Assembly (NCBI GenBank): GCA_024689485.1
Contig: JAILDK010000040.1
Location: forward strand, 1 to 37,558
Reading direction: 5' to 3'
Length of the DNA stretch: 37,558 nucleotides
DNA from: Fibrobacter sp.
Lineage (GTDB): Bacteria; Fibrobacterota; Fibrobacteria; Fibrobacterales; Fibrobacteraceae
Part shown: positions 3,833 through 9,290 of the stretch, piece after piece
Position numbering within the stretch: the stretch's first letter is position 1
How the letters are laid out: each line of letters starts with the position of its first letter
Program-made: the position numbers and the translations under genes
The notes under the pieces: model-generated
Databases searched by the model: none
What the model was told of the DNA's origin: nothing
The model's input: only the letters and a program-made list of their open reading frames with translations

Positions 3833-4603
3833 ATGAAAACTGCTTTCAAAATTCTTTGCGCTAGCATTTTTGCTGCCTCCGTCTCGTTCGCACAAGACGA
3901 TTTTGAAAATTATGATGCTGAGGGTGAGGGCACAACTTATTATGCTCCTGCAGCAGAAGATGATGGGGCAAATTACTACAGCGCAGATGATGAAAACGCT
4001 CCGGAAGAAACCGTTGCTGGTTCTGCAAATTCTTCGAGCGATGAATGGGCTGGTTTTGATTACGAAAACGCTGGTCTTACCCAGTGGGAATTCCAACAGG
4101 CTAAAGAAAGCGGCATGAGCCGCGATAAGCTCACTCAGCTTACCGAACTCGGCGTTCGCCCGTCTGAATACAATCAGGAACCTTGGAAGCGTCTCGGCGT
4201 TTCCGAAGAAGATTGGCTCTCCTCTCGCGCTAGAGGCTTGGAAGATTCCGACATCGACCGTACTTATAGAAATCACGCTGGAGAACAGGACGTTGCTTAC
4301 CTCTCCGCTGTGATTCCGTCCCTCTATCAATGGAAACACGACCAAACGGTGAAGGCAATCTGGATGGATGCCCTTTGGGTTGTCGGCGTTGGCGGTCTTA
4401 CTTATTTCGCAATCAATAACGACAAATACGATAACACTTGGGTTTACTGGTTGATTCCGGTTATCGGTGCTCACGTGTGGTCCTTTGCTGACGCGTTCTT
4501 CGATACCCAGTGGGCGAACAACCCCGATGCGAACCGCTTTAGTCTCGGCATTGGCCCGAGCTTCGAAGGTGGTCTCGCTGGCATTCTGCAAGTGCGCTTC
4601 TAA
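3833..4603 (+). CDS. Exported membrane protein of unknown function
   Basis: A 256-residue protein. A signal peptide (about 1-20, ending VSFAQ) is followed by a very acidic, Tyr/Asp/Glu-rich stretch to about residue 75, and then a helical region. Two hydrophobic segments near the C-terminus (around [15 protein letters not shown] and [19 protein letters not shown]) flank a short loop, and the end ([21 protein letters not shown], in part) resembles an outer-membrane strand. The arrangement of '[10 protein letters not shown]', two hydrophobic helices and a terminal GPS segment weakly recalls DUF5683-type proteins. Function is not recognised. TGAGG 8 nt upstream is the Shine-Dalgarno sequence. It may be co-transcribed with tRNA-Leu. 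Confidence 0.7.
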
Positions 4604-4608
4604 GCAAA

Positions 4609-4956
4609 ATGCAGATCGAACTTCTTAAATGCAAAATTCATCGCGCTACCGTTACGGACGCGAACTTGAACTATGAAGGATCCATTACGCTCGACAGAGC
4701 TTTGATGGACGCCGCAGGCATTCTTCCTTTCGAAAAAGTCGGTATTCTCGACATCAACAACGGCGCACGTTTTGATACGTACGTCATCGAAGGCGAACCG
4801 AATTCCGGCACGATCTGCTTGAACGGCGCAGCGGCCCGTATGGTTCAAAAAGGCGACCTCGTTATCATCGTCTCCTACATTTCCATGACTCCGGAAGAAG
4901 CGAAGACCTGGAAACCGACGGTTGTGAAGGTCGACGCACAGAACAAGCCGCGCTAA
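4609..4956 (+). CDS. panD: Aspartate 1-decarboxylase PanD (pro-enzyme)
   Basis: A 115-residue pyruvoyl enzyme that makes beta-alanine for pantothenate and coenzyme A. It shows the family opening [10 protein letters not shown] and the self-cleavage site Gly24-Ser25 within YEGSITLD; Ser25 becomes the pyruvoyl group. The downstream segments [24 protein letters not shown] and GDLVIIVSY are all characteristic. The start is 5 nt after the preceding stop codon. coaE, a later step of coenzyme A synthesis, is elsewhere in the window and not linked. Confidence 0.96.
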
Positions 4957-4961
4957 ATCGC

Positions 4962-4974
4962 TATATTTAAAGCG
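4962..4974 (+). promoter_or_regulatory. -10 element predicting a leaderless transcript
   Basis: TATATT at 4962-4967 predicts transcription start at exactly 4974, the first base of the GTG start codon. There is no Shine-Dalgarno sequence in the intergenic stretch. Confidence 0.5.
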
Positions 4975-5369
4975 TGAATCATTCCAAACCAACGATAATT
5001 CCTTTGCTTTTTCTTGCAGGGATGTTAATTTCCTGTCAGGACGAGCCTGAGGTCGTTCAAGAAATCCGCGAAACGCCGGGAGATATCCAGGTGTTGAATT
5101 CCAGCGGAATTCCGGGCGCCGCTTCCAAGATGCGCGACTACTTGCGCGCTCAAGGTTTTGACGTGGTGGAAATGAGCAACGACAATCTTTGGAATTACGA
5201 AGAAACCATTATCGCCTTGCGCAATCCACATTGGGCAGGGGCAGAAGCTCTTGCCAAAGCGCTTCACACGCAGAATGTAATCCCGCTTGAAAACAAGCGC
5301 AAACTCGTGGATGCGACCGTGTATGTTGGCAAGGACTTTGAAAAATTGACACAGGCAGGAACACCATGA
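4974..5369 (+). CDS. LytR_C-domain lipoprotein
   Basis: A 131-residue lipoprotein. The signal peptide ends in a lipobox LISC with the lipidated Cys at residue 21. The mature part, from IQVLNSSGIPGAASKMRDYL onward, matches the LytR_C domain (the C-terminal module of LytR-CpsA-Psr proteins, typically 'V.VLNgtg..G.A......L...G'), here standing alone without the catalytic LCP domain. It starts with GTG at 4974. The stop overlaps the rsfS start by 4 nt (ATGA), so the two are translationally coupled. In many bacteria rsfS neighbours lytR-type genes, and this may be a reduced version of that linkage. Confidence 0.75.
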   Translation: MNHSKPTIIPLLFLAGMLISCQDEPEVVQEIRETPGDIQVLNSSGIPGAASKMRDYLRAQGFDVVEMSNDNLWNYEETIIALRNPHWAGAEALAKALHTQNVIPLENKRKLVDATVYVGKDFEKLTQAGTP

Positions 5370-6019
5370 CAACAGCCAAAAAGACAACGACAAAAAAGAC
5401 AACCGCCGTGAAGAAGACCGCGGTTAAGACCACCGCCAAAAAGACGACTGCGACGAAGACCGCCGCAACAAAGAAAGTCGCCACCAAGGCAACTGCCGCC
5501 AAGAAGACTGCGGAAAAGAAGACCGCAGTGAAAAAGGCAACAGTCAAAAAGACTGTCGTCAAAAAGGCTGCTGCCGTCAAAAAAGCTCCCGTCAAGAAGG
5601 CCGCTCCGAAGAAAGAAGCCTACACGGAAGCCGTGAAGAACGCAGCGGAAATCCTTTTCCAGCTCCGCGCTCAGAACCTGCAGTTGATCGACCTTCGCGG
5701 TGTTTCGGACACCTCTGACTTCATGATCATCGCAACTTGCGAAAGCGAAGCCCAGATGCAGGCGATTCTCGATGAACTCAACAAGGAATTCAAGCACCAG
5801 GGTCTGCAGCACCGCACCGAATACAAGCCGGGCATCAATATGCGCTGGGCCGTGTTCGACGCAGGCTTTGACTTGATGATCCAGCTGTTTGAAGAAACCA
5901 AGCGCGAAGAGCTCGCCTTTGACAAGCTCTACAGCGACGCGAAGATTACCGACCTCGAAGAAAAGAACTTTGTGAAGACCAAGGCCAAGAAGGCAAAGGT
6001 TGAAGATGAACTCATTTAA
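5366..6019 (+). CDS. rsfS: Ribosomal silencing factor RsfS with histone-H1-like N-terminal extension
   Basis: A 217-residue protein. Residues 88-200 form the RsfS/Iojap domain: LIDLRGVSDTSDFMIIATC matches the conserved core, followed by the W161 segment and KLYSDA. RsfS binds uL14 (L14) of the large ribosomal subunit and blocks subunit joining in poor conditions. Residues 1-85 are an almost pure Lys/Thr/Ala/Val tract with repeated KKT and KKA units, unlike normal RsfS proteins of about 105-130 residues, and resemble the C-terminal tails of eukaryotic histone H1 and bacterial H1-like proteins. The tail is in frame and uninterrupted, and the ATG at 5366 overlaps the upstream stop codon. Confidence 0.9.
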   Translation: MTTAKKTTTKKTTAVKKTAVKTTAKKTTATKTAATKKVATKATAAKKTAEKKTAVKKATVKKTVVKKAAAVKKAPVKKAAPKKEAYTEAVKNAAEILFQLRAQNLQLIDLRGVSDTSDFMIIATCESEAQMQAILDELNKEFKHQGLQHRTEYKPGINMRWAVFDAGFDLMIQLFEETKREELAFDKLYSDAKITDLEEKNFVKTKAKKAKVEDELI

Positions 6020-7718
6020 TGACGCGATTGCCCAGGCTGTTGCCGCGACGGGCGCTTTTGAATTGGAACAGGCCAAGAAGCTGATCACCGTTCCGACAGA
6101 TACGGAACATGGCAACTTCACCCTTCCGTGCTTTGTCCTTGCGCGCTCCATGCACAAGGCTCCGAAGGTCATTGCGGAAGAACTCGCTCCGAAGATTGAA
6201 CTTCCGAACGGCATTTGCAAAGTGGAAGCGGTCGCCGGTTATTTGAACTTCTTCATCGATCGTAAGTTCCTCGCGAAGTCGATTCTTGAAGCCGTGTCTT
6301 CCCAGGGTCTTGATTACGGTCATGCGGAATCCAACGGTAAAGTGGTCTGCATGGACTACAGTTCCCCGAACATCGGTAAGGAACTCGCGTTCCACCATTT
6401 GCGTTCGACGATGATCGGAAACTCTCTCGCTCGCATTTACAAGGCAGCGGGTTACAAGGTGGTTCGCATCAATCACTTGGGAGACTGGGGCACAGCCTTC
6501 GGTAAGCTGATTGTGATGTACTTGCGCGAAAAGCGTCCGACGGACCAGGCGACTCTCGATTCGCTGACCGTGAAGGAATTGAACATTCTTTACGCGAGCT
6601 TCTCTAAGGCGGCGGAAGCAGAACCGGGTCTCGAAGACGAAGCCCGCGCCGCATTCTCGAAGCTTGAAAAGGGCGATGAATTCTACCATCAGCTCTGGCT
6701 CGCCTTCCGCGCGGCAACTCTCAAGGAACTGATGCGCATCTATAAGATGATGGGCGTCGACTTTGACTATTACACCGGCGAATCCTTCTACGAAGACAAG
6801 ATGCCGGCTGTGATCCAGGATTTGGAAGCCAAGGGCCTTTTGGAACGCAGTGAAGAACGCGACGTGGTGAAGCTCGACGAATACAAGCTGAACCCGTGCC
6901 TGATTCGCAAGAGCGACGGCAGTACGTTGTACGCAACGCGCGACCTCGCCGCCGCCATCTACCGCAAAAAGGAATACAACTTCGACAAGAGCCTTTACGT
7001 GGTGGACTTGGGCCAGGCTTTGCACTTTAAGCAGGTGAAGCTCGTGCTCAAGAAGATGGGCTACGACTGGCACGACACACTCGTTCACATTCCGTTCGGC
7101 GTGATTCTGAACTTGATCGACGGTAAATGGGAAAAGGGTAAGACCCGTACTGGCAAGGCAAAGCTTCTTCGCGACGTGATCGAAGCTGCCCAGCAGAAGA
7201 TTCTCGACTTCATCAATCAGAAGAATCCGGAACTCGAAAACAAGGAACTGATCGCGCAGCAGATTGGCATTAGCGCACTCACCTTCAACGACTTGAAGAA
7301 CCACCGTTTGATGGACGTCAAGTTCGACTGGGACAGCGCTCTGAGCTTTGAAGGCGCAACCGGTCCTTACGTGCAGAACGCACACGTGCGTCTTTGCAGC
7401 ATTATGCGCAAGGCGGGCTACGACGTGAATCTGCAGGACGTGGACTTTGACCAGCTCGCAGACGATGCCGCTTATGAATTGATCAAGCTGCTCGCTCAGA
7501 AGTCGGAAAAGATCCGCAAGGCTTGCGAATCCGACGAACCGTGCGAACTCGCCCAGTATTCTTTGGATATTGCAGGCGCCGCTCACAAGTTCATCCATGA
7601 CGACCGCGTTCTCGGCAGTGCCGAAGAAAAGTCCCGTCTCTTCTTGGTGAAGTGCACGCAGATCGTTCTCGAAGACGTTCTCGTGTTGCTCGGACTTTTC
7701 CCTGTTCGCAACATGTAA
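6006..7718 (+). CDS. argS: Arginine-tRNA ligase
   Basis: A 570-residue class I aminoacyl-tRNA synthetase. It has an N-terminal Arg-tRNA synthetase domain, the catalytic Rossmann fold, and a C-terminal DALR helical bundle ending FPVRNM. The HIGH region at residues 119-134 reads SSPNIGKELAFHHLRS, so the usual H-x-G-H is A-F-H-H with only the last His kept. The KMSKS region appears as GKTRTGKAK near residue 380. INHLGDWGTAFGKLI is typical. The ATG at 6006 overlaps the end of rsfS by 14 nt; a TTG at 6000 is less likely. mqnC follows after 17 nt. Confidence 0.95.
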   Translation: MNSFNDAIAQAVAATGAFELEQAKKLITVPTDTEHGNFTLPCFVLARSMHKAPKVIAEELAPKIELPNGICKVEAVAGYLNFFIDRKFLAKSILEAVSSQGLDYGHAESNGKVVCMDYSSPNIGKELAFHHLRSTMIGNSLARIYKAAGYKVVRINHLGDWGTAFGKLIVMYLREKRPTDQATLDSLTVKELNILYASFSKAAEAEPGLEDEARAAFSKLEKGDEFYHQLWLAFRAATLKELMRIYKMMGVDFDYYTGESFYEDKMPAVIQDLEAKGLLERSEERDVVKLDEYKLNPCLIRKSDGSTLYATRDLAAAIYRKKEYNFDKSLYVVDLGQALHFKQVKLVLKKMGYDWHDTLVHIPFGVILNLIDGKWEKGKTRTGKAKLLRDVIEAAQQKILDFINQKNPELENKELIAQQIGISALTFNDLKNHRLMDVKFDWDSALSFEGATGPYVQNAHVRLCSIMRKAGYDVNLQDVDFDQLADDAAYELIKLLAQKSEKIRKACESDEPCELAQYSLDIAGAAHKFIHDDRVLGSAEEKSRLFLVKCTQIVLEDVLVLLGLFPVRNM

Positions 7719-8807: not shown

Positions 8808-9290
8808 ATGGGAAACATGATTCAGACATCCGGTTTTGAAATTCAGGAAGGTGAGGCTTTTAAGCTTCTTCACGCCTTCCCGCTGATTTTCGACATGAGC
8901 GCTACGCCGTCGTTGCTGTACCGCTTAGACGAAGATTTGAAGGTCGGTTCGACCGTTTCTTACCGTCTTGTTTCCGGATTCCAGATTATCAACTGGAAAG
9001 GTTTCGTTTCTTCGATTCAGGGAAACTCCTGGACGGTGGAACTGAAGCAGGGACCGTTCTCCATGTTCCATGCAGAACATTCCATTCAAATGACCGATGG
9101 CCTTTTGGAATGCTCCGATGAAATCTCCTTCAACGGAGAACCGGTGGACATGACAAGCGTTTTGGAAAACGCCCAAATCGTTTATTCCTTCGGCGCCCGC
9201 AAAAAGCTTTTCCAGGCGAAAGACGCCTTTGAATCCCGTCGCCAGACGGAAACCTTCAGAGCTTTCACTTCCGGGTTCTCTGCGGGCTAA
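8808..9290 (+). CDS. SRPBCC-like (START/Bet v1 fold) protein, unknown function
   Basis: A 160-residue cytoplasmic protein. Residues 45-120 alternate short strands with landmarks VGSTVSYRL, WKGFVSSIQGNSWTVELKQGPFSMFHAEHSIQM and LLECSDEISFNG. The sequence W-x-G through GPF-x-x-x-x-x-x-H to a late D-x-I is the pattern of SRPBCC-family ligand-binding proteins. A second ATG lies at 8817. It ends 12 nt before the UbiD-family gene, suggesting co-transcription, and a hydrophobic-ligand role in menaquinone assembly is possible but inferred. The fold assignment is moderate. Confidence 0.6.
   Translation: MGNMIQTSGFEIQEGEAFKLLHAFPLIFDMSATPSLLYRLDEDLKVGSTVSYRLVSGFQIINWKGFVSSIQGNSWTVELKQGPFSMFHAEHSIQMTDGLLECSDEISFNGEPVDMTSVLENAQIVYSFGARKKLFQAKDAFESRRQTETFRAFTSGFSAG

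Follow-up and report, generated by a model that had tools for sequence, protein, structure and literature searches.

RsfS silences bacterial ribosomes when growth conditions turn poor. Nearly all bacteria encode it, and it is commonly regarded as a minimal clamp with a single domain. On the 50S subunit, RsfS binds uL14 beside 23S rRNA H95 and bL19 and blocks joining of the 30S subunit, and basic side chains of RsfS already contact the backbone of the rRNA (PMC7125091). Residues E70, W77, and D81 (S. aureus numbering) contact uL14 (PMC7125091, PMC9503621), and Tyr98 is the most critical side chain, with the Y98A mutant of S. aureus RsfS losing about 80% of its anti-association activity (PMC9503621).

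Tracts rich in lysine have been described on other bacterial proteins. Chlamydial Hc2 (PF07382) and the tails of Pseudomonas AlgP and PhaF are disordered, Lys/Ala-rich, Arg-poor, repeat-based, and variable in length. Polybasic low-complexity segments are likewise carried by translation or ribosome factors, including E. coli YihI, RNase R, and bacterial L21; the portions of these reports drawn on here do not list RsfS as such a case (PMC12345225, PMC6821194).

Long N-terminal extensions ahead of an RsfS domain are present in MALSU1 and other organellar RsfS homologues. Those extensions are organelle-targeting or assembly-specific segments and are not known to consist of Lys/Ala repeats.

Here we describe an RsfS protein with an H1-like tail, encoded within a 37,558-nucleotide stretch of DNA (the window) from a rumen-type bacterium of the Fibrobacteraceae. 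The protein is like described RsfS/YbeB/Iojap proteins (PF02410, TIGR00090; 6sj6, 4wcw, 2o5a) in its domain, its fold, its single copy, and its equivalents of E70, W77, and D81. It differs from them in an added 85-residue tail, in a leucine at the position of Tyr98, in a two-residue insertion private to its genus that precedes the conserved RW (EYKPGINMRW vs EYKxGVRW), and in the replacement of His88 by Gln, also seen across the genus. The tail in turn departs from those of Hc2, AlgP, and PhaF by its location on a ribosome factor, by its N-terminal placement, and by being rich in Thr and Val rather than Pro, and the protein is not homologous to YihI, RNase R, or L21. No description of a Lys-rich tail on RsfS was found in the open-access papers searched. 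The parts of the fusion are known, and the recurrent fusion itself seems to be undescribed in that literature.

Results

The tail and the RsfS domain share one reading frame

The gene and its surroundings comprise the following features, all on the forward strand.

4974 to 5369, +, LytR_C-domain gene, 131 aa, putative lipoprotein, 5′ of rsfS (PF13399, 54.5 bits)
5357 to 5360, +, Shine-Dalgarno-like AGGA, 5 nt upstream of the rsfS ATG (sequence; conserved in the six species of the genus)
5366 to 6019, +, tail-bearing rsfS gene, 217 aa, ending in TAA at 6017 to 6019 (open reading frame listing; PF02410 and TIGR00090 over cutoff)
5366 to 5620, +, Lys/Thr/Ala/Val tail, residues 1 to 85, putative disordered polycation (composition, selection on composition, AlphaFold2)
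5639 to 5932, +, RsfS domain, residues 92 to 189 (PF02410 match over 92 to 189; Foldseek to RsfS structures, E 1e-8)
5933 to 6016, +, C-terminal segment, residues 190 to 217, ending KTKAKKAKVEDELI (mixed charge; model confidence low from residue 206)
6006 to 7718, +, argS, 3′ of rsfS, with a 14-nt overlap between its start and the rsfS end (TIGR00456, 433.8 bits)

Several other features of this neighborhood were observed. The LytR_C-domain protein (4974 to 5369) is stand-alone with a lipobox-like N-terminus, and panD (4609 to 4956) adjoins its gene in the rsfS and argS neighborhood. Two frames that lie between known genes, 8808 to 9290 and 3833 to 4603, are without any Pfam or NCBIfam match.

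The start of rsfS at 5366 is firmly assigned from conserved sequence features. The TGA of the LytR_C-domain gene overlaps the rsfS ATG in an ATGA at 5366 to 5369, as the initial annotation had held in fixing the start there, and this overlap is kept by every one of the six species and, beyond the genus, by g5, g9, and g10 and by g7, which has no tail. The six species also share an AGGA(A) ahead of the ATG, and no in-frame ATG occurs in the window gene between codon 1 and codon 120, which lies inside the domain. Indels between the six tails of the genus are whole codons, and the frame stays open. An internal start after the tail was ruled out because no alternative start codon is conserved.

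The tail might nonetheless be missing from the mature protein, either because translation starts downstream or because the tail is cleaved. Highly basic N-termini are prone to proteolysis, and codon 90 of the window gene, just ahead of the domain, is an in-frame GTG. However, this GTG has no clear counterpart among the other five species, the ATG is conserved together with the AGGA ahead of it and the ATGA overlap, and selection appears to act on the tail at the amino acid level (see below). We therefore consider a tail-less mature protein very improbable.

The protein is a member of the RsfS family

Membership of the window protein in the RsfS family is firm. It scores 63.6 bits with PF02410 (cutoff 21.6) and 66.8 bits with TIGR00090 (cutoff 56.9), and its best Foldseek matches (E 1e-8) are the RsfS proteins of M. 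tuberculosis and S. aureus, Iojap-like proteins, and mitochondrial MALSU1, with TM (target) values of 0.79 to 0.84 for the top two. A search of the 2.5-Mb source genome, which is 98% complete, identified this gene as its sole RsfS copy. Thus, the claim that a tail and an intact RsfS domain are joined in one frame is borne out, and this frame has the look of one that is translated.

Counterparts of S. aureus E70, W77, and D81 occur in six of six species of the genus, and the partner uL14 encoded by the source genome retains its contact residues (GTR...K..S). The window RsfS may likewise bind the 50S subunit via uL14 and block 70S formation.

The equivalent of Tyr98 is Leu throughout the genus and Ile in most Fibrobacteraceae, and it is Tyr in genera g3 and g8, in family f4, and in most other families read. 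This tyrosine is a functional residue that lies outside the curated definition of the RsfS family, and its replacement by Leu leaves membership standing. The fact that Tyr98 is replaced while uL14 is conserved suggests that the silencing activity of Fibrobacteraceae RsfS may be weakened or rewired. The state of this residue does not track tail presence. No simple rule by which the tail compensates for Tyr98 loss can be drawn, since g3 has both a tail and Tyr and g6, g4, and g2 have neither.

The tail is predicted to be a disordered polycation

Residues 1 to 85 consist almost only of Lys, Thr, Ala, and Val, in agreement with the initial annotation; they lack Arg, have hardly any acidic residues, and carry about +0.33 charge per residue, or a net charge of about +27. 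When the 93 residues ahead of the matched domain are counted, 30 are Lys, none is Arg, three are Asp or Glu, and 94% are K, A, T, V, or P. The AlphaFold2 model is mostly confident over the RsfS domain, and only there. Over residues 1 to 80 its pLDDT is about 42 to 56 per ten-residue block, and the first secondary structure appears at residue 88 or later.

A tract that is Lys/Ala-rich, disordered in the model, and built from repeats has the character of HC2 and H1-like proteins. However, the window protein scores 35.2 bits with the HC2 model PF07382, which is below the 40-bit cutoff, and it is also below cutoff with NF038053 (32.7 vs 80) and NF038052 (21.8 vs 135). The tail is thus H1-like in character only: the description as histone-H1-like stands as a likeness, whereas membership in the HC2 family fails the threshold. 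The number of Thr residues varies among tails, from 22 in the window to 3 in a relative designated G057, and this variability does not seem to point to a Thr-based switch.

The repeat units of the window tail are diverged, with 69 to 82% matches. The tail of G057 (L065, 2573 to 3056), by comparison, is made of 12.4 near-identical copies of a 39-bp unit and is a recent in-frame repeat expansion.

Tails have been gained or lost repeatedly in the phylum

RsfS was detected in 160 of 168 Fibrobacterota genomes, including 89 of the 89 good ones, and tail presence was judged by reading the gene at more than 100 loci. Absence from all relatives had been named at the outset as an outcome that would speak against the tail. 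Instead, the tail occurs in each of the six species of the genus (72 to 93 aa ahead of the matched domain) and in four other genera of Fibrobacteraceae, namely g3 (about 176 aa), g5 (three of three, 86 to 191 aa), g9 (103 aa), and g10 (216 aa). In the distant family f4, long or short tails of 34 to 258 aa occur in all four species of genus g15, and weaker extensions that contain Lys were seen in three members of f7 g21. The longest RsfS extensions found in the phylum, N-terminal and about 255 aa, were observed at two f4 loci (L060 and L061, from G162 and G161). The tail was not seen in Fibrobacter proper (g6, sampled), in g2, g4, g7, g8, or g11, or in f4 g14.

The tail state changes at least six times on the RsfS-domain tree of the phylum, a minimum that rests on a tree of 125 columns with many unresolved forks. 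The untailed g7 sits inside tailed rows of the g5/g7/g9/g10 cluster, which points to tail loss in g7. This seeming loss, together with absence of the tail from g6 and five other Fibrobacteraceae genera, marks the tail as dispensable.

Tail composition and charge appear to be under selection

Across the genus, dS for the RsfS domain ranges from 0.27 to above 2, such that synonymous sites are near saturation. Despite this divergence, none of the six tails contains Arg, and all keep 89 to 98% K/A/T/V/P with a net charge per residue of 0.31 to 0.34. When the window tail was instead evolved neutrally in simulation to 0.8 changes per site, it ended with 45% K/A/T/V/P, a charge of 0.07, and 6% Arg, and the open frame survived in only 7.5% of runs. 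Most differences between aligned tails exchange A, T, V, P, S, and K for one another; as alignment of such repeats is uncertain, it is the composition result that carries weight in the selection argument. These findings point to selection as the force that keeps tail composition and charge within the genus, and they make the tail more than a chance feature. Repeat turnover could partly hold composition steady without selection.

An alternative is that the tail is tolerated and unused, a neutral or nearly neutral low-complexity stretch that arises by slippage at the gene start and is harmless to RsfS. Its wide range of lengths (about 70 to 215 aa), its absence from close genera, the six or more gains or losses, and the nearly identical repeats of G057 are all consistent with this explanation. 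Against it, charge, Arg absence, and composition hold despite near-saturated synonymous sites, none of the three survives neutral simulation, in which a stop codon usually arises, and the diverged repeats of the window tail leave recent homogenization as no explanation. A tail without function is thus unlikely.

Proteome-wide drift toward Lys and Ala was ruled out by counting KA-rich genes of the source genome by DNA pattern, since the KK[AT]xxKK pattern clusters in just three genes, rsfS and two more. The other two encode a protein of about 121 aa, from a 125-aa frame on contig 20, with an N-terminal KA tail and a short domain (G000:C20:18772, L125) and a stand-alone H1-like protein of about 108 aa (G000:C21:37216, L127). 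Fusion of rsfS to a pre-existing H1-like gene was not supported, as the tail matches the stand-alone protein only poorly (E 0.06), and it is also disfavored because the tail begins at the same ATGA overlap as in the untailed g7. Growth of the tail appears instead to take place between a start codon that stays fixed and the RsfS domain, in part through expansion of repeats.

Similar tails occur on RsfS proteins of Bacteroidia

A record assigned to Bacteroidetes (L054) carries an RsfS tail of the same kind as that of the window. Within its class, Bacteroidia, RsfS was found in 380 of 395 genomes, of which 45 RsfS were read. Lys/Ala-rich N-terminal tails were present in 12 of these 45 and Lys-rich C-terminal tails in 4 (L153, L175, L176, and L177), counts that come from a biased sample (15 were picked for long frames) and give no class-wide frequency. 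One further record, L050, has a Lys/Ala C-terminal tail. Judged from these sequences, recurrence of RsfS tails in Bacteroidia, at either end of the protein, appears plain. The fusion first noted in the window is real, but it is neither a one-off, given at least six changes in Fibrobacterota and its recurrence in Bacteroidia, nor a fusion to a known histone gene.

Discussion

We propose, with a probability of roughly 45%, that the tail is a disordered polycation giving RsfS a non-specific electrostatic anchor to RNA. In this view, an ordinary RsfS silencing domain carries an added, intrinsically disordered N-terminal polycation, which would most likely contact 23S rRNA exposed next to the uL14/H95 site, or a neighboring ribosome. 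On free 50S or pre-50S subunits, such anchoring would make RsfS locally more concentrated and longer-lived, and it would leave the specific RsfS-uL14 contact untouched. In-frame turnover of repeats would let the tail lengthen or shorten and so account for its variable length, its charge being held by selection.

Since a flexible tail of this charge is attached to a protein that docks on rRNA, we infer that rRNA is its simplest partner. Recurrence at the N- or the C-terminus is also what a non-specific charged anchor predicts. Bacterial Lys/Ala/Thr tails are best known from DNA-binding proteins, which counts against an RNA anchor. Prokaryotic Lys-rich low-complexity regions are reported as enriched in both DNA- and RNA-binding proteins (PMC6821194).

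The tail could instead bind DNA, as do AlgP, PhaF, and chlamydial Hc2, and so link silenced 50S subunits or stores of RsfS to the nucleoid. Its composition resembles that of H1-like tails, with the subthreshold HC2 match of 35.2 bits, and both KPAA peptides and the C-terminal domain of AlgP are able to bind DNA and to position granules (PMC9239181). The source genome also encodes the stand-alone H1-like protein noted above (G000:C21). Yet the RsfS domain brings the protein, which is without a DNA-binding domain, to the 50S subunit, where rRNA is by far the nearest polyanion, and we regard a tether to the nucleoid as rather improbable.

A further candidate partner is polyphosphate, which on starvation might bind the Lys tail and alter the release, localization, or turnover of RsfS. 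Lys-rich disordered regions of RNase R and of the ribosome-biogenesis factor YihI of E. coli bind polyphosphate (PMC12345225), and AlgP associates with polyphosphate granules (PMC9239181). The source genome has Ppk1, as do eight of ten tailed and three of nine untailed genomes tested. This association is weak (Fisher p 0.07, ignoring kinship; by genus four of six vs three of eight, p 0.59), and G057, which is 99% complete and has a 190-aa tail, is without a Ppk1 match. Co-occurrence of Ppk1 with the tail is thus suggestive only, and we think it quite unlikely that the tail serves as a polyphosphate sensor.

On the reading that the tail is an anchor, a broader proposal may tentatively be made, one that is possible and far from assured: at least two phyla may have repeatedly fused H1-like polycation tails, at either end, to RsfS, generating RNA- or polyphosphate-anchored hibernation factors whose action would depend on charge, salt, or polyanion level. 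A charge-conserved tail that has been gained and lost several times in Fibrobacterota, and is found again in Bacteroidia, provides natural pairs of RsfS proteins with and without it. Such pairs would allow a direct test of whether ribosome silencing is tuned by a disordered polycation, and they would also show whether bacterial H1-like tails serve RNA besides DNA.
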